64,000 nt of DNA, from positions 1 to 64,000 of the forward strand of contig CAKZUP010000066.1 in the NCBI GenBank assembly GCA_937922945.1, read 5' to 3'. Shown here in pieces: positions 45,862 to 61,069 of this stretch; position 1 is the stretch's first letter; every line of letters begins with the position of its first letter. This DNA comes from an uncultured Granulosicoccaceae bacterium (GTDB lineage Bacteria; Pseudomonadota; Gammaproteobacteria; Granulosicoccales; Granulosicoccaceae). Under the pieces are notes generated by a model. It was not told the DNA's origin and did not search any database. It saw nothing but the letters and a program-made list of their open reading frames with translations. Made by a program: the position numbers and the translations under genes.

Positions 45862-47982
45862 ATGGTGGCGCATCGTTACAACCTGAGTCGGCCTAACTGG
45901 GTATTTATCCGGTTGCGTGCGCTTGTCTGCGTTGTACTGTCTGTTTTATTAAGTGCCTGTAATGTGTCTGACGACAATCTGGCCACAACAGATTCCTCTT
46001 CAGGTCCAGATTCTCCGCTAACGGAAGACGCTGCCGATGATCCCGGCAACAGGGCGGACGCTGTGATCATTCCCGCGTCAGCGCAGCCTGTTGCAATAGA
46101 GCTCTCCACAGTGGAAGAGACACCAGTAAGCGGTTTTTTTGCAACGATCGGGCTCAGCGTATCAAGTTCCGCTAATGCAAGCCTGCAGGAGCCGCCGTAT
46201 TACATTGTTTCTCAACCCCTGCACGGCACCATCGTGCAGGAAGGCAACTCCCGACTTTTCACCTATGTTCCCGACCGTGATTTCTTTGGCACCGACACCT
46301 TTGAGTACAGCATAGCGGAAGGCAAAAACGCGCCGGTGTCGATTATCGTTAGTAATGTCAACGACGCCCCGGTCTTGTTCACAGACCTATTGCGAGTAGT
46401 GGAGGCGGGCAGTGAGTACAAAACGTCACTTGTGGCGTCCGATCCGGATAATGATGCGCTTATTTATACAGCCAGCAATCTGCCCTCATGGTTATCCTTG
46501 AACCAGAACACCGGTGAGCTATCAGGTACGCCTACGCGCTTCGACATTGGTGTGTTCCAGAATCTGACCTTTAGCGTCACTGATGTTCGTGGCCTTAGCC
46601 AGACCGTTAGCGACGTGGTTATCGAAGTCATCGCCGCAAACGACGCTCCGTTTATTAACGTCGACCAAATTCCCAGCGATCTGGATGCCGGCGAGATGAT
46701 CGTAGTGCCATTGTTTCCTGATGATTCGAACGGTGACCCGGTCGCCGTGACTTACGAGCCAAATGAGCTTCTTGATATTAATGTCTCGCTTGGTGTTATC
46801 GAAATTGTGGCTGCAGAGGTCGAAGAGGTCACCAAAGTTGAAATGGTGTTGCGTGCCACCGATATCCGTGGTGGTGTCACGGTCACCACCGTGCCCTTCA
46901 TCCTTCACCCTATGAACGCCAGTGGTCGGGGTCGTACTTTGTATGGTCGGGGCGCTGGTGGTGCGGGTGTTCATCTGGTTGTGTTAGGTGATGGATATCG
47001 TGAAGATCAGCAAGCGGTTTTCCGCGAACATGTTGAAACTCTGGTTGAAAAAATGCGTGCCGATGTCGGCATGAGTACGCACTTTTCCGCTTGGAATATT
47101 CACATGGTTGAAACACCGTCCGTCGACTCGGGTATCGATGATAATCTCTCTGTCGACATACGCGATACAGTATTCGGCACCGGTTATTTCTGCAAATCTG
47201 TGCGCAGACTCATTTGTGGTGATCAGTCAGCCATGTTCAGTGTCGCTATCGATGAATACCCTAATTTCGATCAAATTCTGGTGTTGGTTAACGATTCACG
47301 CTACGGCGGTGGTGGTGGCAACATTGCTATTTCTTCCACCGAAAGTATCGAAATCGCGTTGCATGAAATGGGGCATACCATAGCCGGACTGGCTGACGAA
47401 TACGTCGATCAATACATCCCGGAAAGCAGCATGCCTTCTTTCGTGGAAGGGCAGTATCCGAACGTATCCAGCAGAAGTGAACCGTCAGACGTACCCTGGA
47501 GCCATTTCTTTGCACCGGAGGACGGTTTCTCGGCGTTCAGCCCGGACTTGGAAGTTGGCGTTTATGAAGGGGCTTTCTATCGTGCCAATGGTTTTTATAG
47601 ACCCACTCCCGATAGCTTGATGCGCAGCTACGATGGCACGCTTGGACCGATCAACAGTGAACAATGGGCGCTGGCCGTCTATTCACGCGCCACACCCATT
47701 TTGGATATTGCGCCGGTTACCCGCTTATTGACGTTGCCTGCGGGTGCGGCACAGGAGTTTCGTGTAGAGCCTATGTTTGGCTCAGATCTGCAATCTGTTG
47801 AATGGCGGTTAGACTCGAGAGTCATTCCCGATTCAGGTTTGGATAGGTCGAGTGTCAACCTCAGCTTTCCAGCGGGTGAATACAAGGTGTCTGTTAGTGT
47901 CAAAGACATAAGTGGGCTGATACGCAAACCCGAACCTCACAATGGCGTTTTTAATTGGGAGTGGACGGTTGTCAGTCAGTAG
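45862..47982 (+). CDS. M64-family metallopeptidase lipoprotein with Ig/cadherin-like domains
   Basis: 706 residues. A lipobox (LLSAC, about residues 29-33) shows lipid anchoring. Residues 75-170 and 175-265 look like Ig/cadherin-type repeats ending in VNDAPV and ANDAPF, and a third such domain reaches about 350. The catalytic domain has HEMGHTIAGLADEY, the zinc motif HExxH at H501-H505 with the downstream acid, as in the IgA-peptidase M64 family. LVVLGDGYREDQQAVF and FDQILVLVNDSRYGGGGG are also family-like. A final Ig-like segment closes the protein. It probably cleaves extracellular or surface proteins. It is the first gene of the exported-protein locus. Confidence 0.87.
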   Translation: MVAHRYNLSRPNWVFIRLRALVCVVLSVLLSACNVSDDNLATTDSSSGPDSPLTEDAADDPGNRADAVIIPASAQPVAIELSTVEETPVSGFFATIGLSVSSSANASLQEPPYYIVSQPLHGTIVQEGNSRLFTYVPDRDFFGTDTFEYSIAEGKNAPVSIIVSNVNDAPVLFTDLLRVVEAGSEYKTSLVASDPDNDALIYTASNLPSWLSLNQNTGELSGTPTRFDIGVFQNLTFSVTDVRGLSQTVSDVVIEVIAANDAPFINVDQIPSDLDAGEMIVVPLFPDDSNGDPVAVTYEPNELLDINVSLGVIEIVAAEVEEVTKVEMVLRATDIRGGVTVTTVPFILHPMNASGRGRTLYGRGAGGAGVHLVVLGDGYREDQQAVFREHVETLVEKMRADVGMSTHFSAWNIHMVETPSVDSGIDDNLSVDIRDTVFGTGYFCKSVRRLICGDQSAMFSVAIDEYPNFDQILVLVNDSRYGGGGGNIAISSTESIEIALHEMGHTIAGLADEYVDQYIPESSMPSFVEGQYPNVSSRSEPSDVPWSHFFAPEDGFSAFSPDLEVGVYEGAFYRANGFYRPTPDSLMRSYDGTLGPINSEQWALAVYSRATPILDIAPVTRLLTLPAGAAQEFRVEPMFGSDLQSVEWRLDSRVIPDSGLDRSSVNLSFPAGEYKVSVSVKDISGLIRKPEPHNGVFNWEWTVVSQ

Positions 47983-48004
47983 TCGCCCTCACTTCCTAAG
48001 CTTG

Positions 48005-48049
48005 AAAAATTTTGCTGTGAAAATTGTTGCTGTGAAAATTGGTGTTGTA
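48005..48049 (+). repeat. 15-bp tandem repeat, three copies
   Basis: AAAAATTTTGCTGTG, AAAATTGTTGCTGTG and AAAATTGGTGTTGTA follow one another, with a partial fourth copy, in the spacer between the M64 gene and the small secreted protein. Confidence 0.8.
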
Positions 48050-48090
48050 AAAATCAAGTGCAGCGTAAATTAAGTTGGAGTCGTCGTTTT

Positions 48091-48540
48091 ATGTTCAGTC
48101 AAACGTTCACGCGAACGATTTTCGCGCATCTACTATGTGTGGCTTTAGGCATAGTGAGCTGCGTTGCCCAAGCCGAGTTACGCGTCATAGTGCAATATGA
48201 TGACAGTGGGCACAATCTGTTGCGAGCCGTTGAGTTGCCAGAGACCAATGCACTGCCTACCGAGCTTTCGACTGAGCTGCTCAAAAACGCATTAACCCGT
48301 GTGACATTGAAATGGTATGACTCTGACGGCCGTTTGATGCATGCCGGTAGCATTACCGACCCCCGACTGGTCCATGCACCCTTAACATCCACCACCGAAG
48401 CGCCAGAGGTTGTCGGGCTCAATACTGGGGCTTATATGGTCTCGGGGCCGATTGGGAGCGCGGTGCTGGAAGTGCAGTTACCAGCCAATCCCACCCTGGG
48501 GCTCGATGCACATACATACCGAATCGATCTGCTGAACTGA
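48091..48540 (+). CDS. Small secreted protein of unknown function
   Basis: 149 residues from the ATG at 48091, which has GGAG ten bases upstream; a GTG at 48058 is possible. A signal peptide ends at VSCVAQA. The mature part, about 120 residues, is beta-rich (ELRVIVQYDDSGHNLLRAVELPE; RVTLKWYDSDGRLMHAGSI; GSAVLEVQLP). I recognise no family. It lies between the M64 peptidase and the coiled-coil membrane protein, and may be an accessory of either. Confidence 0.6.
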   Translation: MFSQTFTRTIFAHLLCVALGIVSCVAQAELRVIVQYDDSGHNLLRAVELPETNALPTELSTELLKNALTRVTLKWYDSDGRLMHAGSITDPRLVHAPLTSTTEAPEVVGLNTGAYMVSGPIGSAVLEVQLPANPTLGLDAHTYRIDLLN

Positions 48541-48557
48541 TTTTTCGCCTTTGCTCA

Positions 48558-48577
48558 TTTGGGTAATCTTACCCAAA
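48558..48577. promoter_or_regulatory. Perfect 20-base dyad upstream of the coiled-coil gene
   Basis: TTTGGGTAA (48558-48566) and TTACCCAAA (48569-48577) are exact inverted repeats around TC. It lies 18 bases after the stop of the small secreted protein and about 200 before the next start. It is a candidate operator, or a terminator stem without a U-run. Confidence 0.5.
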
Positions 48578-48778
48578 TTCGCGTAATTCGCGACTCGATA
48601 AGCAGATAACGCGAGCTAAATCCAGTAAGCTTATGAAAATTATAGGTTTGCTGAAATCGTGCTTTGGTCGATGTTGTTCGAAAAACCTTGTGTAAACAAA
48701 CGACTACTGCCCGTTTTGCTACCGCCAATGGGATATCATGCCCAAAGGATGGGCTTGGCCTATCTGTAAAGCGAAATA

Positions 48779-50917
48779 ATGCACGAAAGTGCCTCCCAAA
48801 ATAAGAGTGTCGAAGGCTTAATGTCCACGCCTGATTTTGACAAACCGAAAGCTGATGCCGATGGCATGTTCGACTTTCTCGAAGAGGAAGCCGCCAACCG
48901 CCCCTCGCGCGAAAAAAAGGCTCGTCGAACCGATGAGCTGGTTATGCCGATTATTCGCAAACCGGTACCGATTTCTGAATCGGGCCCGGCACGCGTAGGT
49001 TCGTCAGATACGGTTTCGATCAATGTATCTGACGATGACTTCGACTTTCTCGGTGATCAGCCCTCGCCAAAACCCCGCCCAGTAGCACAGGAAGAAGCGT
49101 GGAATGAGGGTATTCATGTTGAGAGCGAACCACGTGGAAAGTTATTTGGTGGAAAGTCGTTAGCGTTGCTTGTAGGCGCTGTGTTGATCGCCGGGGGGGG
49201 GCTTGGCTTTATGCTGCTGCGTGATTCATCCTCACAGGACGCGGCAACGACCACCGGCACCGTAAACGACGAAACAGTTGTTGGCGTTACCAATTCGTCT
49301 GACGTAGGCGATTCGTCTGAAGCTGCACCGTCTGACGTTATCCAGACCACTGGGCAGTCATCGCTGTATCAACAGTTCAGTGAGCAGCTGCAAATCATCG
49401 AAGGACTTGTCGCAGAAGGGTTGCTCGATGAGGCGGAGAGTGCGCTGACGCGGATGGATAGATCTGTTTATGGTTATGGCGCGCCAGAATTTGGTGAGAT
49501 TGAAAATCAGATCGCCCGTTTGCGAACTGTCGATGTTGGTTCTGCTTCTGATACAGAAACCGTGGAAGAAGCCAGAAGAGCAGCCGAATTGGCGCGCATC
49601 AATGCCGCTGATCGTTTGGCGGAAGATCAGCGAATAGCCGAGGAAGCGCGACTGGCAGATGAAGCACTTGCTGAAGAGTCCCGTGTCGCAGAAGAGGCGC
49701 GTTTAGCAGAACAAGTGCGACTGGCAGAGGAAGCACGATTAGCTGAACAAGCTCTCGCTGCGGAACAGGCCCGGCTGGCAGAGGAAACCCGTATAGCCGA
49801 AGAAGCACGATTAGCAGAACAAGCTCTCGCTGCAGAACGGGCTCGACTGGCAGAGGAAACCCGTTTAGCCGAAGAAGCACGTTTAGCTGAAGAAGCTCGC
49901 GCTGCGGAACAGGCGCGCTTTGAAGAGGAAGCACGTTTAGCCGAGGAAGCTCGATTAGCTGAAGAAGCTCTCGCTGCGGAACAGGCCCGCTTGGCAGAGG
50001 AAGCACGATTAGCTGAAGAGGCTCGCGCTGCGGAACAGGTGCGATTAGCACAGGAAGCACGTCTAGCTGAACAAGCACGCGTTGCGGAACAGGCTCGACT
50101 GGCAGAGGAAACCCGTTTAGCCGAAGAAGCACGTATAGCTGAAGAAGCTCGCGCTGCCGAACAGGCACGTTTGGCGGAGGCAGCGCGCTTGGCGGAGGCG
50201 GCTCGTTTGCTTGAAGCGGCCAAATTGGAAGAAGCGGCTCGGGTGGCGGAAGAAGCGCGCGTCGCAGCGCTTGCCGCAAGAGCGGCAGCCGAACTGCAAG
50301 CAGCGCAGGAGCGCGCTGCAGCTGATCAGGCAGCGCAGCAGGAGTCACTTGAGCAGGAACAATTAGCCTTGGCAACCGACAAAGCGCAGGAGCGGATTCA
50401 ACAGGAACGCGCGGCGCAGATAGAAACAGAGCGTCGTATAGCTGAGCGTAATCGCTTGAATAATGAAAGAGCAAGGGCTGCTGAGTTTGACCGTCAGCAA
50501 GCTCTGCAACGCCAAGCGGCACAGCAGAGAGAGGCTGCTGAGCAAGCGCAAGCTAACCTACAAATTACCCCTAAACCTGTCAACATCAGCGATGATGATT
50601 TTAATTATGTGGCGGGTAAGTTTGTTGAGCTCAAGCAGGCAGTCACTGAGCGAAACATTCAGAAAGTGATTGAACTAACGCAACCGTCTGGTCGACGTAT
50701 TCAGCAGATGTTACAGATATTTGAAAACCACGATGAGGTGCAGGCACGAATCAGCAACGTGGCTTCACGAAACGCCGACGGTGTCATTGTCGGACAGTTG
50801 CGAATTCAAAAACTCGTGCGAAAATCGGGCGCGGTTACATCCGCACCGGATAATTTGTCATCCATCACCCTAACCAGTAAGCGAAGCCCCACGGGTTGGT
50901 CTGAAATAGTCTGGTAG
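48779..50917 (+). CDS. TolA-shaped membrane protein with a long Ala/Glu/Arg coiled coil
   Basis: 712 residues. The cytoplasmic N-terminus (about 1-125) is acidic and basic in turn and contains NVSDDDFDFL at 82-91. One membrane helix follows (about 127-147, LALLVGAVLIAGGGLGFMLL), then a low-complexity stretch, a helical segment (YQQFSEQLQIIEGLVAEGLLDEAES), and about 330 residues of EEARLAEQ-type repeats forming a very long helix. The C-terminal 110 residues form an NTF2-like domain (FVELKQAVTERNIQKVIELTQPSGRRIQQML), preceded by NISDDDFNYV at 602-611, an echo of the N-terminal motif. The layout recalls TolA, spanning the periplasm. Codons 139-141 lie in a G9 tract. Confidence 0.8.
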   Translation: MHESASQNKSVEGLMSTPDFDKPKADADGMFDFLEEEAANRPSREKKARRTDELVMPIIRKPVPISESGPARVGSSDTVSINVSDDDFDFLGDQPSPKPRPVAQEEAWNEGIHVESEPRGKLFGGKSLALLVGAVLIAGGGLGFMLLRDSSSQDAATTTGTVNDETVVGVTNSSDVGDSSEAAPSDVIQTTGQSSLYQQFSEQLQIIEGLVAEGLLDEAESALTRMDRSVYGYGAPEFGEIENQIARLRTVDVGSASDTETVEEARRAAELARINAADRLAEDQRIAEEARLADEALAEESRVAEEARLAEQVRLAEEARLAEQALAAEQARLAEETRIAEEARLAEQALAAERARLAEETRLAEEARLAEEARAAEQARFEEEARLAEEARLAEEALAAEQARLAEEARLAEEARAAEQVRLAQEARLAEQARVAEQARLAEETRLAEEARIAEEARAAEQARLAEAARLAEAARLLEAAKLEEAARVAEEARVAALAARAAAELQAAQERAAADQAAQQESLEQEQLALATDKAQERIQQERAAQIETERRIAERNRLNNERARAAEFDRQQALQRQAAQQREAAEQAQANLQITPKPVNISDDDFNYVAGKFVELKQAVTERNIQKVIELTQPSGRRIQQMLQIFENHDEVQARISNVASRNADGVIVGQLRIQKLVRKSGAVTSAPDNLSSITLTSKRSPTGWSEIVW
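49193..49201 (+). repeat. Nine-G homopolymer inside the membrane-segment codons
   Basis: Three GGG codons (G139-G141) plus neighbouring bases give an uninterrupted run of nine G. Loss or gain of one G would shift the frame within the membrane helix and remove the whole periplasmic part. Confidence 0.85.
49567..50230 (+). repeat. Tandem repeat region encoding the coiled coil
   Basis: Units of about 18 bases encode EEARLA-like hexads, arranged in larger blocks. Two blocks of about 75 bases, at 49841-49915 and 50093-50167, differ at only a few positions and lie 252 bases apart, a multiple of three, so recombination between them would delete 84 residues in frame. Confidence 0.85.
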
Positions 50918-50930
50918 CCCGGAGATAACT

Positions 50931-51572
50931 ATGTGCCGTACACGATTCAAGAAAATTGCCGCAACGTTTGTGGCGGTTATGCATGTGTTATTCAGCGTGT
51001 TGTTGGTTGTTCCCGGATATGCGAACGCGCAAGCTGTCGATGTTGAACCACCAACCATAGAACATGAAAGTGTTGATCAGGGTGTGCGTGGAGAAACGCA
51101 GGTATTTTCAGCAACTGTTGCCGATAATAATGCAATCTCTTCAATGACGTTGCATTATCGCTTCGGTTCGACAACAGGGTACATCACGGTTCCTATGTCG
51201 CCAATCTCAGGCACGTCCATTTATACAGCATCTGTAGATACCGCGAATGCATCCAGCGACCTCATTCAATATTATATGGAAGCGCGGGACACCGGAGGCA
51301 ACCGGACGGTTCAGGGTTTCGCATTTGATCCGTTCGAACGCGTGTTGGTTGATGACGACGCAGCTATCGTGACTGATACAACCTCGGCTAATCCGACGGT
51401 TGTAGCGGCAGCCCCTCGTGAACGAATGTCCACACAACGAAAAATTATTTACGGTTTGTTGGGTGTGTTGGTTGTGGGTGGTCTGGCCGCTGCCAGCAGT
51501 AGTGGAGGTTCCTCAGGCGGATCGTCCGAAGAGCAAGTTGATCTGACGATATTCGTCCCCCAGTTTCAGTGA
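50931..51572 (+). CDS. Exported Ig-like protein with a C-terminal membrane anchor
   Basis: 213 residues. An N-terminal signal segment (VAVMHVLFSVLLVVPGYANAQA) is followed by one Ig/fibronectin-like domain (about 38-130; PPTIEHESVDQGVRGETQVF; SDLIQYYMEARDTGGNRT). A linker leads to a second hydrophobic helix (KIIYGLLGVLVVGGLAAAS), a Ser/Gly run and a hydrophobic end (DLTIFVPQF). The domain between two helices should lie in the periplasm. It starts 13 bases after the coiled-coil gene with a GGAG site, so the two form an operon and probably interact. Confidence 0.65.
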   Translation: MCRTRFKKIAATFVAVMHVLFSVLLVVPGYANAQAVDVEPPTIEHESVDQGVRGETQVFSATVADNNAISSMTLHYRFGSTTGYITVPMSPISGTSIYTASVDTANASSDLIQYYMEARDTGGNRTVQGFAFDPFERVLVDDDAAIVTDTTSANPTVVAAAPRERMSTQRKIIYGLLGVLVVGGLAAASSSGGSSGGSSEEQVDLTIFVPQFQ

Positions 51573-51669
51573 AGCATTACGCCAATCTCAGCTCTGGCCG
51601 GTATTTTCTGACTGACTTTTTATGAATTATCAATTCTAATTTGATGGTTCATTACTGATGGAGTTGCCG

Positions 51670-54408
51670 ATGCGATTCTTTACAACCGATTTAACTAATT
51701 TCAGTCTATTCATCCTGCATCGACTGTGCACGGTTCTGCGACTATCGCTTCTGCTAACGGTTGCGATAGGACTAAGCGCCTGTGAATCTGAAAGTACCGG
51801 TGGCGCAAGCGTCTCACCGAATAAAGGGTCGGTTTTTCAGATGTCTCCTCCAGCTGAATTGCTGCAGACCAAAGCTGTTGACCCGACCGCGCTGATTCTG
51901 GACGTGACGGTGAACGGCGACACCGTCGACATGATCGCAGACCCGGTAACAGGGGTTCGCTCGGGTACGATTCGGCTAGTCGCGGGAACGCAATCCGTTA
52001 TCGACATTGTCTGGTCGGAAAGTTTTCAGGGAGAAAAGTTGGTTTTGGGTGAGGCGACGCGCAATGTCGATGTCACGCTTAACCCCGATAGAACACAAGA
52101 GGTTCGTTTTCTGGAAAGTGACTTCGATTACAGCATGGATGCTGACGATGATGAACGTTCCAATTTGCAGGAGCGTCGAGAAAATTCAGATCCGTTTGAT
52201 GCAGGCAGTCCGGGTGTACCCCCCGTGCAGGTTCCGGTGGTGCTTCGATTTTTAGTACCGGATGAGCGAGTTCTACAAAACGCAGACATTTTGCAGAACC
52301 TGACACCCATTGCCATGTTTAACGGCGATGTGTTGCCACTTAATCGAACGGGTAACACCTGGATTGCGGAAACCACTACTGCAGAAGACAGCAACGGTTT
52401 TGCCTCCGTCAATTTCTATCAAAATCCAGATCAACGCATACTGCTTGCTACAGCGCAGCGTAATCAAGCCATTGGAAGTGGTGCCGAATTCAACTTTGCA
52501 AGCGATGAATATGAAACGGCTGATCTTGACGAAGATAATGATGAGCTTTCAAACCTAGAGGAAATTATTCAAGGCTTTAATCCACTGGACTCCAATAGCC
52601 CCGCCAAAAATCCGTGCGATACCAGTCAGTTTACATTGGGTTGCACCATTGACACAGACGGTGATGGCGATGCTGATAGTTTGGAAACTGCAACTACCGA
52701 TACCGATGGGGATGGTACGCCTAATTATCTTGAGTCTTCTAACCAGGACGATGATGAGGATGGACGAGATGCCGAGCGGGATGCTGATGACAACGATCCC
52801 TGTGCGCCGTCGGCCAACAATGTTGCTTGTCAGAATCTTCGCAACGATACCGATGGCGATGGTAAAACCGATATAGAAGAGGGCGATGGTGATACTGACG
52901 GTGATGGGATTCCTGATGTCAGAGAATCGTCTTTGCTTGATGCTGATAATGACGGTGAAAAAGATGAGGCAGATCCTGCTAACACCGACCCATGTGTACC
53001 TCGTACAAGTGCGCAAGCATGTCTGGTAACCACTAACGATTCCGATGGTGATGGAAAACCCGATATTGAGGAAACAACTACTCGCGATACAGACGGTGAT
53101 GGTAAGCCAGACTATCTTGAATCTGCCCTACAGGATAGCGATTCAGATAATCGCGTAGACGAATCAGATAGCGACGACAATGATCCCTGTGTGCCAAGCA
53201 CAGGCAACACCGCATGTGCCGATCAACTGCGTGACACCGATGGTGACAATAAAACCGATATTACGGAAACCCTGACGGCTGATAAAGATGGTGATGGAAC
53301 GCCTGATTATCGTGAGTCATCGATCAATGATGCTGATAACGATGGGGTTGATGATGAGAACGATCCGGAAAATAACAATCCGTGTGTGCCAGGCACCAAT
53401 AACTCAGCCTGCGAAGATCAAACACGGGATAGTGATGGCGATAACAAAACGGATGTTGTGGAGACGCTTACCACTGATGGCGACGGTGACGGCATATTCG
53501 ACTATCTGGATTCAGCTATTCTCGATACCGATGGCGACGGTGTGTTTGATGAGCTCGACAGTGACAATACCGATGCGTGTATACCATCGACAAATAACGC
53601 GGCATGTCAAAATGAGATCGATCCCGATGGTGATGGTTTGGTCGGCGCAGACGATAACTGCCCGGCGATTGCAAACCCTGCTCAAACCAACTCTGATAGC
53701 GATGCTCAAGGCGATGCTTGCGATACCGACGACGACAACGACAACGTGCTGGACAGCGCACCCGACAATTGCCCCATAGTGGCCAACCCATCACAACTGG
53801 ATACCGACAACGATGGCATGGGCAACGCGTGCGATACAGATGATGACAACGACAACGTACTGGATGACGAGCCTGATAATTGCCCTCTGATAGCCAACAC
53901 GACACAAGACGATGCCGACAATGACGGCATTGGTGATCTATGTGATTTAAGCACCGATACAGATGCTGATGGCGTGCTCGATGATTTTCCGGACAATTGC
54001 CCCATGGTTCCTAACGCTGATCAGCAGGACACTGATTTAGACGGCGATGGCGATGCCTGTGACATCGATGATGACAACGATCTTATTCTTGATTCAGCGC
54101 CGGACAATTGCCAATTTGTGGCAAACGCTTCTCAGCTTGACACAGATTTAGATGGCGAAGGCAATGCGTGCGATGATGACGACGACAACGACCTGGTGTT
54201 GGATGATTTTCCGGACAATTGTCCAATAGTGCCCAACGCATCTCAGCTTGACACAGACTTAGATGGCGATGGCAATGCGTGCGATGATGACGATGACAAC
54301 GACCTCGTGCCAGATGATGCTCCAGACAATTGTCCATTGGTAGCCAACGCATCTCAGGCTGACTCAGACTTGGATGGCGTAGGTGACGCCTGCGAAACAA
54401 CGCCTTAG
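51670..54408 (+). CDS. Large acidic lipoprotein with thrombospondin type 3 repeats
   Basis: 912 residues from the ATG at 51670, which has GGAG six bases upstream; a Met at 51658 is an alternative. The lipobox is GLSACES. A beta-rich N-terminal part (to about 155) leads to some 15-20 Asp-rich calcium-binding repeats. The first set has DTDGDGKTDIEE and NPCVPS units with Cys pairs; the second has PDNCPIVANPSQLDTDNDGMGNACD repeats. The protein ends abruptly at DACETTP with no C-terminal domain, so it may be a rod or calcium-dependent linker at the cell surface. The repeats are nearly exact at DNA level in the last third. Confidence 0.82.
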   Translation: MRFFTTDLTNFSLFILHRLCTVLRLSLLLTVAIGLSACESESTGGASVSPNKGSVFQMSPPAELLQTKAVDPTALILDVTVNGDTVDMIADPVTGVRSGTIRLVAGTQSVIDIVWSESFQGEKLVLGEATRNVDVTLNPDRTQEVRFLESDFDYSMDADDDERSNLQERRENSDPFDAGSPGVPPVQVPVVLRFLVPDERVLQNADILQNLTPIAMFNGDVLPLNRTGNTWIAETTTAEDSNGFASVNFYQNPDQRILLATAQRNQAIGSGAEFNFASDEYETADLDEDNDELSNLEEIIQGFNPLDSNSPAKNPCDTSQFTLGCTIDTDGDGDADSLETATTDTDGDGTPNYLESSNQDDDEDGRDAERDADDNDPCAPSANNVACQNLRNDTDGDGKTDIEEGDGDTDGDGIPDVRESSLLDADNDGEKDEADPANTDPCVPRTSAQACLVTTNDSDGDGKPDIEETTTRDTDGDGKPDYLESALQDSDSDNRVDESDSDDNDPCVPSTGNTACADQLRDTDGDNKTDITETLTADKDGDGTPDYRESSINDADNDGVDDENDPENNNPCVPGTNNSACEDQTRDSDGDNKTDVVETLTTDGDGDGIFDYLDSAILDTDGDGVFDELDSDNTDACIPSTNNAACQNEIDPDGDGLVGADDNCPAIANPAQTNSDSDAQGDACDTDDDNDNVLDSAPDNCPIVANPSQLDTDNDGMGNACDTDDDNDNVLDDEPDNCPLIANTTQDDADNDGIGDLCDLSTDTDADGVLDDFPDNCPMVPNADQQDTDLDGDGDACDIDDDNDLILDSAPDNCQFVANASQLDTDLDGEGNACDDDDDNDLVLDDFPDNCPIVPNASQLDTDLDGDGNACDDDDDNDLVPDDAPDNCPLVANASQADSDLDGVGDACETTP

Positions 54409-54434
54409 TTAGCGTACACGCATTAAAAGATAGC

Positions 54435-54455
54435 AACCGCACATTTCGTGCGGTT
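54435..54455. terminator. 8-bp hairpin after the repeat lipoprotein gene
   Basis: AACCGCAC (54435-54442) and GTGCGGTT (54448-54455) form a perfect stem with loop ATTTC, 27 bases past the stop. No U-run follows on this strand. Confidence 0.5.
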
Positions 54456-54570
54456 GGTCACATCAACATCTCGATTAATCGTCATAATCCTTACGTTCTA
54501 ATCACCGCATTTCGTTAGTTTGCGAGACTGTACTCGGCATGCGATCGGCTGGTTGCGCGACAATCAGCGA

Positions 54571-55176
54571 ATGAAACGAAAACCAATAATGACTCTGAGC
54601 GCAGCTTGCCTTTGCTCTGCTGTATTGAGCTTCTCTGTGCAAAGCCTAAGTACTGAGCGTGACCTGCCGGTTGAATCTCCAGACGCAAGGCTTCAACCGA
54701 TACAGCGTATCGTGCCTTATACGGACGAAGACTATGGCTTTAAATTAGCCGTGCCAGAACATTGGTCACGTGTGTTCGCCGTTGAGGATGATAGTGAGGT
54801 TAACGCGCTTGAGCCAGGCTATGCGATTGGTTTTGAATCGCCTCGCAGCGGTTTGCACGATCATTTCGCCGATTACCTGATGATAGAAGTACTTCCTGGA
54901 TCGCATTCAGGTGCGTTTGACAGTGACGGTAGTCAACAAGGCGTGGTTATGGTTGACGGAAGAATGGCGGTAACAGACGTGGTGTATCTCGATGGCTATG
55001 AAGTCGATGGCACATCACTCGACTTAGTTGTCTATCAAGCTGAAATAATCGAACTCGGATTTACGTTAACCGTATTTGCCATTGGCGAGAAACGCGAAGC
55101 TGCTGTTCTGGTTGATGCGTTCGAGCTCGCCCTTAAAACACTGAAAGTACCAGACGACCCCTTCTCTGTGAGTTAA
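54571..55176 (+). CDS. Small exported protein of unknown function
   Basis: About 201 residues from the ATG at 54571; an upstream TTG (54520) is less likely. A signal peptide (MTLSAACLCSAVLSFSVQS) is visible. The mature part has the phrase YTDEDYGFKLAVPEHWSRVFAVED, like the PsbP/DUF1795-type fold where a substrate-exposed protein begins 'YGFxxxxPxxW'. This is a weak likeness. It could be an accessory protein to the surrounding surface proteins. The minus-strand GH16 gene ends 41 bases beyond its stop. Confidence 0.55.
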   Translation: MKRKPIMTLSAACLCSAVLSFSVQSLSTERDLPVESPDARLQPIQRIVPYTDEDYGFKLAVPEHWSRVFAVEDDSEVNALEPGYAIGFESPRSGLHDHFADYLMIEVLPGSHSGAFDSDGSQQGVVMVDGRMAVTDVVYLDGYEVDGTSLDLVVYQAEIIELGFTLTVFAIGEKREAAVLVDAFELALKTLKVPDDPFSVS

Positions 55177-55217
55177 GTCTCAGTGAGATAGGTGCCGCCC
55201 GGTTATTCGTGAATTAC

Positions 55218-57032
55218 TTAGTTAGTCGCTCGTTCGGGATAGCCTTCTGGCCACAGCTCGAACGGAGGCAGATGACTTGGTGATGCGCCTGGTACATCGT
55301 CCCATTGCAGCAACTTCGACTCCAGACCTTCTGTAGGATCGCTCTGCGGTACACCGCCGGCTTTTTGATAAGCGCGTATGTAATCGATCTTGTACTGAGC
55401 CGGGAAATTGGTCGTGCTATCTGGTGAGCCTGGCCACCAGCCACCCAAAGCGGTATTGGCAATAATGTACATTTCCTGCTGAGATACTTTGGCATCGACA
55501 ACGCGATGCTTTTCGATACCATTGACATAAAAAATCAATACACCGGGTAACCACTCAACGCCAAACGTGTGCCAACCGTTCGTGAAATCGACACCTGATG
55601 ACGGTGCTGATTCTGTTGAGCGCAAAGTGCCGTCACTATCGTGGTAGTGATACGTGTGATAAACCACGTCCTGATTGTCACCGATGAACTCCATGATATC
55701 GATCTCGGGCTTATCGTCAACATAGTAGGCATTCAGTAACCAGAACGCTGGCCATAGACCTTGGCCGAACGGTAGTTGCACACGAGCTTCAACATAGCCA
55801 TAGGTGAATTTAAACGAATCGTAGCTGGTGAACATGCCAGACAGATACTTCTGCCCATAAGCTTTTTCCGCCAAATCATCCGGGGTTTCAATAGAGTTAA
55901 TAGTGATTGACTCACCGTCAAACGTAAACGGGTTGTAGCCGAAGTCGGGTTTGTTCTGAATATCAACGTAATGCTGCTCTTCACTGTTAATGACGAGTGC
56001 ATCGCCCCACAAGTATTGCGTTACCCATTTGCTGCTATCCAGTTCTGTACCGTTGAATTCATCCGAGAAAACCAACTCATATCCGTCGAGAATATTTTCG
56101 TTTGGCGTTGGTGAGTCGGGATTGACTCGTCCGGTACCAGTGACGTCAACGGTTAGTCCTCTGGCAACATAGTTGTAGTTTTCATCGAAGTCGAATGCCT
56201 GAATTTCGTAGTAGTAACTTTCATCAAACGTATCTGTATCGATATATTCTTCTGTAAATACAGTAGCGATATATTCCGCTTGTCGATAGACGTTGTAACC
56301 GCGAGCCGTCGGATCTTCTAACCAGCTGACTTTAATCGCACCATCGTCAAGCACCTCACCGACAAAACCGTCAGTATTGGTTGCAGTGAATGTTGTTTCT
56401 GATGGCTCGTCGGCTTCATTAGCCTCACCTGCATCCGGGGTTTGTTCCGGTGTGTTGCTATCAACGTCTACCATGTTTGTTGGTTCAGCTTCGACTGCGG
56501 GCTGTTCTTCTGCATCGGTTGTTGGCTCGGCGACGACAGGTTGTGCTTCAACCGGCACTGGTGCGGGCTCAACCGTTTCTGATTCTGTTTCGTCCGTAAC
56601 CGGTATTGGGGTAACGCTGCCTTCACCGCCATTTTCCGGAAATGAATCCGCGTCGGCTTCGTTTGCTTCAACCTCGTTAGTGTCAGCTTCATTAGCCTCA
56701 GCGAGCTCGGGTTGGTTCCCGGATTGCTGGCTGGCTTCGATAGCTTCACCAACGCCCGAGTCGGCATCGCTATCGGTGCTGGTTGACGTTTCCACTGTTT
56801 CCACGGGCACGAGTCCCGCCGCTGCTGCCTGAGCAACACTCAATGATGTGGTGTCGTCTGAGGCCAACTGTGCTGCACTGATTGAGCTACTGCCACTCGC
56901 CGTAGGCGAATCTGTTGCAGTGTCCGTATTACCGCTACCACAAGCGCTTAGTAATACGGCGAGCGATACGCTGCATGCTGAAGTAAGAGCATGTCGATAC
57001 AACGGTGTTGATTTGTACCGTGGGTTTCTCAT
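55218..57032 (-). CDS. GH16-family glycosidase lipoprotein with intact active site
   Basis: About 604 residues from the ATG at 57032. The lipobox is LLSACGS. An acidic, Glu/Pro/Thr-rich region (to about 215) is followed by a fibronectin-like domain (WLEDPTARGYNVYRQAEYIAT). The GH16 beta-jelly-roll starts at YELVFSDEFNGTELDSSKW. The catalytic motif EIDIME (E443 nucleophile, D445, E448 acid/base) is complete. GLWPAFWLLN and WHTFGVEWLPGVLIFYVNG are also typical. Laminarinase, agarase, carrageenase or lichenase activity are possible; the sequence does not separate them. A paralogue lies at 58722. Confidence 0.88.
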   Translation of the reverse strand: MRNPRYKSTPLYRHALTSACSVSLAVLLSACGSGNTDTATDSPTASGSSSISAAQLASDDTTSLSVAQAAAAGLVPVETVETSTSTDSDADSGVGEAIEASQQSGNQPELAEANEADTNEVEANEADADSFPENGGEGSVTPIPVTDETESETVEPAPVPVEAQPVVAEPTTDAEEQPAVEAEPTNMVDVDSNTPEQTPDAGEANEADEPSETTFTATNTDGFVGEVLDDGAIKVSWLEDPTARGYNVYRQAEYIATVFTEEYIDTDTFDESYYYEIQAFDFDENYNYVARGLTVDVTGTGRVNPDSPTPNENILDGYELVFSDEFNGTELDSSKWVTQYLWGDALVINSEEQHYVDIQNKPDFGYNPFTFDGESITINSIETPDDLAEKAYGQKYLSGMFTSYDSFKFTYGYVEARVQLPFGQGLWPAFWLLNAYYVDDKPEIDIMEFIGDNQDVVYHTYHYHDSDGTLRSTESAPSSGVDFTNGWHTFGVEWLPGVLIFYVNGIEKHRVVDAKVSQQEMYIIANTALGGWWPGSPDSTTNFPAQYKIDYIRAYQKAGGVPQSDPTEGLESKLLQWDDVPGASPSHLPPFELWPEGYPERATN

Positions 57033-57248
57033 AATTTTGCCGTTTGTTACCAAGTTTGAAAAGACTGTGCGCCCGTTCACGAATAAGCGTGCAATGACTA
57101 CCTTGCAAGCCTTAGACCCGACGCATTTCTGTAGTTATCGGATCGCGGAGGAAACGCTAAAGAGGCTGGTGGGGAACTGTTCGGCAATTGCCGAAGGTGT
57201 TGGCACAAATCCTGTAGATACTCCACTGATACCTAGAGTGGATTTGAC

Positions 57249-58706
57249 ATGCCGAAACGAAGATTAACGATTCATGCCTGTGTAGCCGGTGTGTTGCTTG
57301 CGGGAACAGCGGTTGCCAAAGCGGATGTGGCCCCATGGAGTGGGAGTTTCGCTGCTGATGGACAGTGCTTTTGCACAGGTTCAGTGGGACGGGAAATTGA
57401 CTCGAGAATAGTACCAACGCCGGTAGGTGGTCAGTCAGTCGCGCAAGTGTGTGAGCGGGTGGGCGAAGGACCTCGGTTACAAAAGGTTAATGGTAAATTT
57501 AATTACACCGTTTTCGAAGATCGTCAGTGTGGTCATGGTCCGATACTCGATACCAAGGCAGACCAGCAATGTCTGGGACATCTTGGCGTCGCGGGTGAAG
57601 ATTGTGCTGCAAAAGGGCCGCGATGGGATCTGGACACCGCGTATTCATCCACAGAGACACCCAAGCCGGGTATCTCAGTAGCAAGCTCAGATACCAGTGG
57701 TCCTCGTTATATACAGCCTCAGGTCAAAGCGTCGGGTTCGCAACTAACGCAATCCAACAAACAGCCTGAAGTCGATACCAAGGATTTTGGTGCATCTGCC
57801 TATATATCAGTCGAAGAAATTGCCGCGATTCGAAAAGACGCGCAACCATTGGCAAAAGTCTCCACACCTGAGGTTAAACCGCAGGTTATAACCAAACCGA
57901 TCATAAAGAAGCCTGTACCGGAAACGCGTGAACAATTGCGCGCAAGGCAGCAACTTCATTTGGTGGAAGCGCGTGAGCGCGCTCGCATGCGTGCTGTCGC
58001 AGAAGCAGTTGCAACAGATACCCAAGCCCCGATTGCATCCACTGTTTTACCAGCGCCCCCAATCGCCGCTGCGAAATCGGAGGAAGTGAAACCTGAACTG
58101 GTTGACACCGATATAAACAGTGCAGATGAGACGGCTATGTCAACGGCTGCAGAACTGAGCTCTGATGCAGCCCCAGCACCAACTCTGTTATCTGCACTGC
58201 AATTTCCGTTATCGCTAAATCGAGGGTCGAAAGATTTCGATTTTATAGAAGCTGCACCCGTTAATTATGACTTTGGTGGTGCTGGTATGAGGTTGACGGC
58301 CAGTAAATCCTCAATGGATCAATTGCAGTATTTTTTACGAGCGTCCCTGGCGGAAAGCTATCAGGAAGTTGCTTTGGGTTTGGGGTACTTCATCTCACCA
58401 CAACGATTGCCAAGATTAACCTTTATGGCAAGCTCTGGTTTCGAGACAGGACGACTTGAATTTCGTGACGACTCGCTTGAGGCAGAGCTTACGGATACGG
58501 GTGTTTTTATGGAAGTCGCTTCACGATTTGCCGTGTCATCGCAATTCAAATTGCAGGGCGGGGTGAGCTATAGCAGCTTTTTTGAAGGCGATTTTATCGG
58601 CTTTGGTGAAGCGCTTTTCAATCTGACATCTGACATTGATTTAAGTGCACGCGTTGAAGCCGGCGATAACGACATGCTTGGCTTCGGTGTTCGATACCAC
58701 TACTAA
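57249..58706 (+). CDS. Predicted outer-membrane beta-barrel with Cys-rich N-terminal domain
   Basis: 485 residues with a signal peptide (CVAGVLLAGTAVAKA). The N-terminal 120 mature residues hold a Cys-rich domain (QCFCTGSVGREID; DRQCGHGPILD; QQCLGHLGVAGEDC). A Pro/Ala/Glu-rich middle (about 140-320) follows. The last 150 residues alternate as in beta strands (RLTASKSSMDQLQYFLRASL; ALGLGYFISPQRLPRLTF; DNDMLGFGVRYHY) and end in an aromatic residue, as barrel proteins do. I recognise no family. It lies between two GH16 genes and starts divergently from the first, so they may share regulation. Confidence 0.65.
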   Translation: MPKRRLTIHACVAGVLLAGTAVAKADVAPWSGSFAADGQCFCTGSVGREIDSRIVPTPVGGQSVAQVCERVGEGPRLQKVNGKFNYTVFEDRQCGHGPILDTKADQQCLGHLGVAGEDCAAKGPRWDLDTAYSSTETPKPGISVASSDTSGPRYIQPQVKASGSQLTQSNKQPEVDTKDFGASAYISVEEIAAIRKDAQPLAKVSTPEVKPQVITKPIIKKPVPETREQLRARQQLHLVEARERARMRAVAEAVATDTQAPIASTVLPAPPIAAAKSEEVKPELVDTDINSADETAMSTAAELSSDAAPAPTLLSALQFPLSLNRGSKDFDFIEAAPVNYDFGGAGMRLTASKSSMDQLQYFLRASLAESYQEVALGLGYFISPQRLPRLTFMASSGFETGRLEFRDDSLEAELTDTGVFMEVASRFAVSSQFKLQGGVSYSSFFEGDFIGFGEALFNLTSDIDLSARVEAGDNDMLGFGVRYHY

Positions 58707-58721
58707 CCATCAGCATTGAGC

Positions 58722-59657
58722 ATGAACATGAAAACAAGATTCATCCCTCGAATTATCATTGGCGTTTCTGCGTCGTTGTTGCTGAGTGCTTGTGGTGATA
58801 GCGACCTTGCCGACATAGAAGACAGAGAGCTGGATACAGCCCGACGTGTTCAATTGGCCGAACAACTTGAACAAGCCTCTGAGCCTGAGCAGGGCGCTGC
58901 ACAAACAGGTGTAGAGCTGGAAGATTATGACTTGGTATTCAGTGACGAATTCAACGGCGACACAATCAACAGCACAAAATGGGTAACCGCTCAGCAGTGG
59001 GGGCCTGATCTTGTGATAAACGATGAGCAGCAGTACTACATCGATACTCAATCGAATGCCGACTTTGGCTATAACCCGTTTTCCTTCGATGGAGAATCCT
59101 TGATTATCAGTGCTATTGAGACACCTGAAAACCTTAGCGCTGTGGCCAACGCACAGCCTTATCTTTCTGGCGTGCTGAGCACGGCTGGCAATTTTGATCT
59201 GACCTATGGTTACATAGAGGCACGGATGGATTTGCCTGAAGGTACGGGTTTATGGCCGGCGTTCTGGATGTTAAGTACTGAGTTTGAAGCGCTAAAACCA
59301 CAATTATTTATTGTTGAAGGCAACGGTGCAAAACCCGAGAGCGTGTTCCACAACTATAACTACCACGATGAACAGGGTAATCTGAGATCACCCGGTCAAT
59401 GGGAAGTGACGCAGGAAAGTTTTGCTGAAGGTTTTCATACTTTTGGTTTGAGCTGGAGCGCAGAGGAGCTGTTGTTCTATATCGATGGCATCCCACGCTA
59501 TCGAATTATTGGTGAGAACGTGTCTCAACAGGCAATGTACTTAATTGTGAATCTTGCAGTGGGTGGTGTGTGGACGGGAAGTCCGGATGCCAGCACCGAG
59601 TTCCCCGCCGAGTTGAAGATAGATTACATTCGCGCTTACAAGCGAAAAGCATCTTAG
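58722..59657 (+). CDS. GH16-like lipoprotein with a lost catalytic nucleophile
   Basis: About 311 residues from the ATG at 58722; a TTG at 58716 is less likely. A lipobox (LLSACGD) is followed directly by the GH16 fold: YDLVFSDEFNGDTINSTKWV. It runs in parallel with the gene at 55218 along its length (FGYNPFSFDGES; TYGYIEARMDLPEGTGLWPAFWM; KIDYIRAY). At the active site the intact EIDIME of the paralogue reads QLFIVE: E443 of the paralogue corresponds to Q194, D445 to F196, while the acid/base E199 is kept. It should bind a glycan without cleaving it by the usual mechanism. Confidence 0.85.
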   Translation: MNMKTRFIPRIIIGVSASLLLSACGDSDLADIEDRELDTARRVQLAEQLEQASEPEQGAAQTGVELEDYDLVFSDEFNGDTINSTKWVTAQQWGPDLVINDEQQYYIDTQSNADFGYNPFSFDGESLIISAIETPENLSAVANAQPYLSGVLSTAGNFDLTYGYIEARMDLPEGTGLWPAFWMLSTEFEALKPQLFIVEGNGAKPESVFHNYNYHDEQGNLRSPGQWEVTQESFAEGFHTFGLSWSAEELLFYIDGIPRYRIIGENVSQQAMYLIVNLAVGGVWTGSPDASTEFPAELKIDYIRAYKRKAS

Positions 59658-59791: not shown

Positions 59792-61069
59792 TTAGTTCAA
59801 CGGCTTGAAAGTGATTGGCTGTGATGCATCTGTTGCATTGTGAAACTGGGTGATGCCCACCGTCTTTAATGACTCAAGCTGCTGCTTGATGTTCTTTTGC
59901 CTGATTTCCAATGACACGTCGTGCCGATCGGTTCGCAATGCATTAGCGTTGATAAACAGGGTTTGCAGATTGGTGTCATCAGGGTTGTAAAGAATTGCTG
60001 AACGAGCAGGTGACTCGTGTATTTTCTCACCACGCTCCTGCAGGATATACAGGATACGTTCAAAGCCGATGGAGAATCCACACGCCGGTACGCTGGTTGA
60101 CTTTAAAAACTTGCCGATCATATTGTCGTAACGTCCACCACCGGCTAGTGATGAACCAAACTCATTAGACGAGACCTCGAAAATAGGGCCGGTGTAATAA
60201 CCCATTCCACGTACCAGAGACAAATCGAACTCAACGCTATAGTGACCATCCGCAACAGCGGTTGCGGTTTGAATAATCTGTTGCAGTTGCGCAAGGACTG
60301 CTTCATCCAGACTATCGATGTGATTGGAAATGGTGTCGAGACGAATTTCATCGTTCATATAGGCGTGCAAAAAGGCGGTGAGCTTATCGATACTTTGTTG
60401 ATCAACCGATCGTCCCTGTAGTTCTTTTACAATGCCTTCAACGCCAATTTTATCCAGCTTGTCTAGCGTTACCAATACACCAGCGACGTCTTTGTCGGCG
60501 ATACCACAGTGCGTTGCCAACGTTTCGAGTATCCGCCGATCGTTGACTCTGACAGTAAAATCCTTGAAACCAAGTTTGGTTAGCGTGCTGGCGGATGCGT
60601 TGATTAATTCGATTTCTGCTGTGTGAGCAGCGGTACCAAGGTAGTCGATGTCGCATTGGAAAAATTGTCGATAACGCCCTTTTTGTGATCGTTCGGCTCG
60701 CCATACATAGCCCATTTGAATGGTTTTAAACGGGCGTGGCAGCTTGGTGTGGTTGTTTGCATAGAAGCGCGCCAGTGGCAAGGTAAGGTCGAATCTCAGG
60801 CCGTAATCAACCAGGTCGTTTTCATGCTGTACAGGCGTATCGAGCTTTAGCTTCTCACCCCGCTTGAGCACTTTAAAAAGCATGCTCAGATTTTCTCCGC
60901 CTTCGGCGTTTTGCAGAATATCGATGTTTTCCATGACTGGCGTTTCGATTTGATTGAATCCAAAACTTCGATAACTTTGCAGAATGATGCTCTTCACGTG
61001 CTCGCGCAAAGCGGTATCGGCTGGATCAAAATCGCGAGTACCTTTGACAGGTTTGGTGGATACTGGCAT
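59792..61069 (-). CDS. hisS: Histidyl-tRNA synthetase of a non-gammaproteobacterial type
   Basis: 425 residues, class II synthetase. Motif 1 region: KPVKGTRDFDPADTALREHV. Motif 2: YVWRAERSQKGRYRQFFQCDIDYLG, preceded by LRFDLTLPLARF. The His-binding GGGRYDN and motif 3 CGFSIGFERILYI follow. The RFDLTLPLARF and QCDIDYLG stretches are those of the archaeal/eukaryotic-like and some bacterial lineages; most gammaproteobacterial HisRS read LRPEGTA and QLGCEVFG here. The usual neighbours (ispG, yfgM, bamB, der) are missing. It might be an acquired replacement. It lies on the minus strand behind a terminator hairpin shared with the GH16-like gene. Confidence 0.92.
   Translation of the reverse strand: MPVSTKPVKGTRDFDPADTALREHVKSIILQSYRSFGFNQIETPVMENIDILQNAEGGENLSMLFKVLKRGEKLKLDTPVQHENDLVDYGLRFDLTLPLARFYANNHTKLPRPFKTIQMGYVWRAERSQKGRYRQFFQCDIDYLGTAAHTAEIELINASASTLTKLGFKDFTVRVNDRRILETLATHCGIADKDVAGVLVTLDKLDKIGVEGIVKELQGRSVDQQSIDKLTAFLHAYMNDEIRLDTISNHIDSLDEAVLAQLQQIIQTATAVADGHYSVEFDLSLVRGMGYYTGPIFEVSSNEFGSSLAGGGRYDNMIGKFLKSTSVPACGFSIGFERILYILQERGEKIHESPARSAILYNPDDTNLQTLFINANALRTDRHDVSLEIRQKNIKQQLESLKTVGITQFHNATDASQPITFKPLN

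Follow-up and report, generated by a model that had tools for sequence, protein, structure and literature searches.

A nine-gene cluster of exported proteins

The locus studied here raises the question of whether nine adjacent genes for exported proteins, found in an uncultured marine Granulosicoccaceae bacterium of seaweed type, form an envelope system of their own and, if so, what such a system might do. The window, meaning the whole stretch of 64,000 nucleotides that we analysed, lies on contig 66 of a genome that totals 5.0 Mb in 225 contigs, and the nine genes at 45862-59657 are labelled P1 to P9 in order. All nine open reading frames of the original prediction were confirmed, eight on the plus strand and one (55218-57080) on the minus strand, with intergenic gaps from P1 to P9 of 75, 238, 13, 85, 111, 41, 168 and 9 bp. 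The predicted domains were also recovered in Pfam, with Peptidase_M64 at 109.7 bits (cut-off 26), TSP_3 in eight stretches and GH16 twice. A lipobox is present in the M64 protein P1, the TSP3 protein P5 and the GH16 proteins P7 and P9, and is found in 18/20, 21/23, 23/26 and 27/28 of their orthologues, respectively. Apart from P3, which has one internal transmembrane segment, the other cluster proteins begin with a hydrophobic stretch. The export signals originally proposed for the set were thus present, with the amendment that the last gene, P9, also encodes a lipoprotein.

Open reading frames were called mechanically, many of the compared genomes are metagenome assemblies, and absences at contig ends were left out of the counts. 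Scans of the window for promoters (11 versus 14.2 in shuffled sequence) and terminators (18 versus 13.0) were at or near the shuffled background, and we therefore claim no operon limits.

The cluster is conserved within and beyond one genus

The order and relative orientation of P1 to P9, including the reversed GH16 gene, are kept on unbroken contigs in five further Granulosicoccus species (loci L021, L024, L033, L040 and L044). Three more species, likewise on unbroken contigs, retain eight genes (two species) or seven (one species), the absent members being P2 in L027, P1 and P2 in L026, and P5 in L035. The proteins of these related loci mostly share 25-70% identity with those of the window. 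In two further genera, g2 and g3, the order is looser: P1-P2, P3-P4, P6 and P7 follow one another as in the window with other genes inserted, and the P8-P9 pair is located elsewhere. The concern that the neighbours might prove unlinked in related genomes, with no conserved order, is therefore not borne out, and the view that the nine genes are a conserved unit of envelope proteins is supported.

The flanking genes had, dat, sdhB and sdhA are likewise kept in order, so that gene order inside one genus is, taken alone, weak evidence. These conserved flanks, together with the individually missing members and the separate position of P8-P9 in other genera, would fit a loose neighbourhood in which exported proteins that work independently have stayed side by side because the genomes of one genus are slow to rearrange. 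We consider this explanation rather improbable, given that P1-P2, P3-P4 and P6 stay linked in the other genera despite the inserted genes, that the gaps at P3-P4 and P8-P9 are only 9-13 bp, and that the pairing of P4 with P3C, the C-terminal domain of P3, recurs in unrelated families.

Between P9 and sdhB the window also carries a histidyl-tRNA synthetase-like gene (59792-61069, minus strand) that is found only here and in four close relatives. A second HisRS-like frame, with 26% identity, lies on contig C192 of the same genome, and the gene in the window appears to be an additional HisRS gained by insertion in a single clade.

P3 and its relationship to transmembrane Ser/Thr kinases

P3 (48779-50917, plus strand) has the layout of a bitopic inner-membrane protein, with a cytosolic tail, one transmembrane segment, a long coiled coil and the C-terminal P3C domain. 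Its true start is probably Met15 (about 48821), where the orthologues begin. Alignment of the orthologues places a tail (48821-49141, plus strand) with two FDFL motifs and IIRKPVPISESGP where the relatives have a kinase domain, and a PVPISESGP segment and both FDFL motifs are conserved in it. The transmembrane segment follows as a hydrophobicity peak (residues 122-148; 49142-49222, plus strand), and the coiled coil lies downstream.

The P3C region (50540-50914, plus strand) covers the last ~110 residues of P3 and recurs at the C-terminus of transmembrane Hanks-type Ser/Thr kinases, which score 126-135 bits for Pkinase. Alignment, AlphaFold2 modelling (mean pLDDT 88.5) and Foldseek indicate an NTF2-like fold common to these kinases and to caspase-domain proteins, with matches to NTF2-like/SnoaL folds at E-values down to 3e-5 and a TM-score of about 0.6, and with the CaMKII association domain lower in the list. 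No Pkinase match was found by Pfam in the P3 of the window, and no P3 of the cluster in any species matched a kinase profile. In a quick tree, which has few columns and long branches, the cluster P3 group is nested among kinases, with 97% SH-aLRT for the genus group, and kinase loss is the likely direction of change. Judged by its sequence, cluster P3 is related to transmembrane Ser/Thr kinases but has no kinase domain, and it shares the extracytoplasmic module of Hanks-type receptor kinases.

Transmembrane Hanks-type Ser/Thr kinases with extracytoplasmic sensor domains are known as the PknB/StkP type, and the P3 relatives likewise have an N-terminal kinase, one transmembrane segment and an extracytoplasmic C-terminal domain. 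Unlike PknB and StkP, however, their extracytoplasmic part is a coiled coil with an NTF2-like domain rather than PASTA, they have dedicated Ig-like and lipoprotein partners, and the P3 of the cluster itself lacks a kinase. The Tol-Pal protein TolA has an inner-membrane anchor and a long alanine-rich helix, both of which P3 shares, and P3 had been described as TolA-shaped. The likeness is one of shape alone, and homology to TolA was rejected: P3 has no TolA family match in Pfam, it ends in an NTF2-like domain of the kind found in Ser/Thr-kinase receptors, and it carries a 120-residue cytosolic tail. Nor was a tolQ-tolR-tolB-pal neighbourhood found at the locus, which is flanked by dat/had and hisS/sdh. 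Foldseek also matched P3C to the NTF2-like domain of RsgI9 (structure 7sjy), one of the RsgI anti-sigma factors that act as single-pass polysaccharide sensors in Clostridium thermocellum (PMC12203970). This is a likeness of fold only, and RsgI differs in acting on a sigma factor in a Gram-positive bacterium and in having no Ig-like or lipoprotein partners.

A periplasmic position of P3C has two lines of support: the domain follows the transmembrane segment in the kinases, and two distant loci (L150, 9123-11255; L152, 9413-10594) fuse it to caspase (C14) domains behind an N-terminal hydrophobic, signal-like stretch. Both fusions lie beside P4 and are apparently periplasmic caspase-like proteins. 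In genera g4/g5 (L086, L119 and L128), P3C is fused to a UPF0126/Gly_transporter-type membrane domain (by Pfam for L086) and adjoins a P5N lipoprotein whose C-terminal part looks formylglycine-enzyme-like. A further P3C domain is nearly identical to that of the G013 locus and lies on a contig of 4.9 kb (L051; G029:C85) whose genome is assigned to a different genus; this contig is probably a binning contaminant.

P3C, P4 and P5N recur together outside the cluster

P4 (50931-51572, plus strand) is a secreted Ig-like protein, and it matches solved structures of bacterial peptidylarginine deiminases in their Ig-like domain region. It is present in 48/48 genomes of the Granulosicoccaceae, in about three copies each. 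It ends in an RK-hydrophobic-Gly/Ser-rich tail, whose hydrophobic segment (51444-51503, plus strand) is conserved in the P4 alignment. P4 C-termini (51444-51572 in the window), those of distant families included, have features in common: two adjacent basic residues, a hydrophobic stretch, a run rich in Gly and Ser, and a short strand at the end. The tail does not follow the positive-inside rule, which we counted against our main reading given below.

P5 (51658-54408, plus strand) is a lipoprotein in which a conserved N-terminal domain, P5N, is followed by calcium-type D-x-D-x-D motifs and a TSP3 array. The approximate limits of P5N (51790-52227, plus strand) were drawn from the alignment and from matches in paralogues. 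P5 scores 127 bits for TSP_3 and contains 23 DxDxDG motifs, and its array is encoded by 111-bp tandem repeats (53719-54383, plus strand) that vary between species. In four orthologues (G002, G009, G021 and G025) the array is absent or reduced, the protein in this slot having 265-275 aa and 0-2 D-x-D-x-D-G motifs. In paralogues, P5N is followed by CBM9 in most cases, by PD40 in L147 and in others by domains that appear by eye Calx-beta-like or formylglycine-enzyme-like. The calcium-dependent matrix that had been envisaged is therefore not a core property of the system. The TSP3 repeats also align with MtsC (NF047638), a cell-cell cohesion protein of Myxococcus; membership of that family was rejected, since the 247-bit match falls below the NCBIfam cut-off of 350 bits and covers the repeats alone, and P5 has no MYXO-CTERM. 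At some loci, an EndoU nuclease-domain protein (L072, 11237-11962, by Pfam; L074, 7513-8127, by eye) is divergent to a P4-CBM9 pair and followed by a large membrane protein, an arrangement that recurs in several species.

Within the family, 55 of the 58 P4 copies outside the cluster have a P3C or P5N protein no more than two genes away, the neighbours having been read with home-made profiles. Among 939 open reading frames away from P4, P3C matched in 12 and P5N in 4, the 12 largely because some loci had been fetched on P3C hits. Outside the family, P3C is carried in distant Gammaproteobacteria by kinases and by the two caspase-domain proteins; it adjoins P4 at 13 of 16 places, six of which also have a P5N-like lipoprotein. 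A class sample of 369 genomes contained P3C in 16, P4 in 18 and both in 16 (16/16 and 16/18, respectively), an overlap with a Fisher p of about 4e-26 that ignores kinship among genomes that are not independent. Both proteins were confined to the same ten bacterial families in this sample. A phylum-wide sample of 398 genomes, which is sparse and missed known positives, yielded no occurrence of P3C elsewhere. Other observations also weigh against our main reading: many loci have P4 and P5N but no P3C, so that P4 does not require P3C; some kinases carry P3C but have no adjoining P4 (for example L073, L082 and L158-L160); and P6 to P9 lie outside the module elsewhere. The P3C protein of the cluster is itself adjacent to P4, and P3, P4 and P5 appear, from these sequence comparisons, to be the core module of the cluster.

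A candidate link between the cell surface and the cell interior

Our main reading, in which belief and doubt are about evenly balanced, is that the locus encodes an uncharacterised sensor or tether spanning the envelope, a module from which the kinase has been lost and to which surface enzymes have been added. P3 would sit in the inner membrane, its coiled coil reaching into the periplasm and ending in the NTF2-like domain; P4 would be its Ig-like partner, and P5 a lipoprotein whose exchangeable outer domain makes contacts outside. Where the module has its general form, P3 carries a Ser/Thr kinase at its cytosolic end, and when the lipoprotein bound a ligand or matrix, P4 and the NTF2-like domain would relay this event to the kinase. 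In the cluster, the kinase would have been replaced by the short tail with its two FDFL motifs, so that P3 either recruits a separate cytosolic partner or has turned into a tether joining the two membranes. Its partners in processing and binding at the surface would be the M64 protease, the active GH16 enzyme, the inactive GH16 protein P9 and the barrel. We infer the physical contacts, the signal flow and the ligand of the module, the last probably a beta-glucan or protein matrix, from the homology, adjacency, co-occurrence, kinase absence, export signals and catalytic motifs read in the sequences.

A purely mechanical role, in which P3-P4-P5 anchor a matrix, P3 bridges the membranes like TolA and the enzymes remodel an extracellular glucan or protein matrix, would suit a P3 that has no kinase in any species, its long coiled coil and its lipoprotein, barrel and GH16 neighbours. 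We nevertheless rate it at about one chance in four, as most relatives of P3 are kinases, the TSP3 array lacks conservation, and the conserved FDFL/PVPISESGP tail suggests a cytosolic partner.

The sensor or tether reading can be extended, more tentatively, to a modular trans-envelope system of Gammaproteobacteria that would be categorically new, in which a constant core of P3C, P4 and P5N couples surface binding to different internal outputs. Its exchangeable inner effectors would be a Ser/Thr kinase, a caspase-like peptidase, a UPF0126-type membrane domain or the kinase-less tail, and its outer sensors CBM9, PD40, the Calx-beta-like or formylglycine-enzyme-like domains assigned by eye, or the TSP3 array. 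Transmembrane kinase receptors are known as a kind; the composition P3C-P4-P5N and the kinase-less cluster have no counterpart in the family libraries or literature searched. In agreement with the original prediction, Pfam, NCBIfam, PADLOC and literature searches matched the nine genes to no named system. Anti-phage defence was considered and rejected, PADLOC giving no hits for the seven cluster proteins scanned and, for one kinase and one caspase relative, only matches generic to their domains.

Ser/Thr kinases that have an extracytoplasmic part are known, but how Gram-negative receptor kinases read events beyond the outer membrane is, to our knowledge, poorly understood. A family of kinases with Ig-like and lipoprotein partners of their own offers concrete, testable candidates here, and the core of the cluster suggests a so far undescribed link or signalling route that leads from the surface of the cell to its interior. 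As a natural kinase-less variant, the Granulosicoccus cluster could separate a mechanical from a signalling role.

Predicted surface enzymes and binding proteins of the cluster

P7 (55218-57080, minus strand) is a lipoprotein with an acidic linker and a GH16 domain (87.9 bits, Pfam) whose catalytic motif, EIDIME (E-x-D-x-x-E; 55689-55706, minus strand), is intact and is present in 26/26 orthologues. Its closest structures are beta-1,3-glucanases, and it shares fold and catalytic motif with the GH16 beta-1,3-glucanases 3atg and EglC (NF052454), although it falls below the EglC cut-off and its substrate is putative. P9 (58716-59657, plus strand), in contrast, is a lipoprotein with the GH16 fold and QLFIVE (59301-59318, plus strand) in place of the catalytic motif. 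In all 27 readable orthologues the central Asp is replaced by F or Y, and the first Glu is mostly Q. By these substitutions P9 is a conserved pseudoenzyme, and it is probably a glucan-binding protein. The suggestion that the locus has its own glycan processing is thus plausible for P7 only.

The P7 motif and its proximity to beta-1,3-glucanases, together with relatives that live on kelp (PMC9238374), would also fit a small locus for utilisation of laminarin-type beta-glucan in an alga-associated bacterium. This seems very unlikely to us, as Pfam finds no SusC/SusD or TonB-dependent transporter pair, sugar transporter, regulator or second active glycosidase among the nine genes, and the M64 protein, P2 and the P3C-P4-P5 core would be left unexplained. 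The same study reported no laminarinase genes in kelp-associated genomes of this dominant seaweed epibiont (PMC9238374), whereas a GH16 protein with an intact motif is conserved here.

P1 (45862-47982, plus strand) is a lipoprotein that combines cadherin/Ig-like domains with a metallopeptidase domain of the M64 family (HEMGH). In addition to M64, it matches Big_9 and He_PIG in Pfam and is similar to 4df9/3p1v, and the zinc motif HE[ML]GH is present in 20/20 orthologues. Its positional partner P2 (48058-48540, plus strand) is a small secreted beta-rich protein with no Pfam or NCBIfam family, confined as a single copy to genera g1-g3. P6 (54520-55176, plus strand), a small exported protein that likewise has no match in Pfam or NCBIfam, occurs in genera g1-g3 and also on a single g4 contig, probably a contaminant introduced by binning. 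For P2, P6 and P8, profile searches against the PDB yielded no useful match.

P8 (57249-58706, plus strand) occurs in six genera and combines a Cys-rich N-terminal domain, a linker and a C-terminal outer-membrane beta-barrel of about 10 strands. The barrel is predicted with high confidence by AlphaFold2 and matches solved outer-membrane barrels in Foldseek. The Cys-rich domain (57249-57698), for which no family or fold was found, recurs up to five times in a genome, within frames of other lengths that range from about 110 to 1160 aa.
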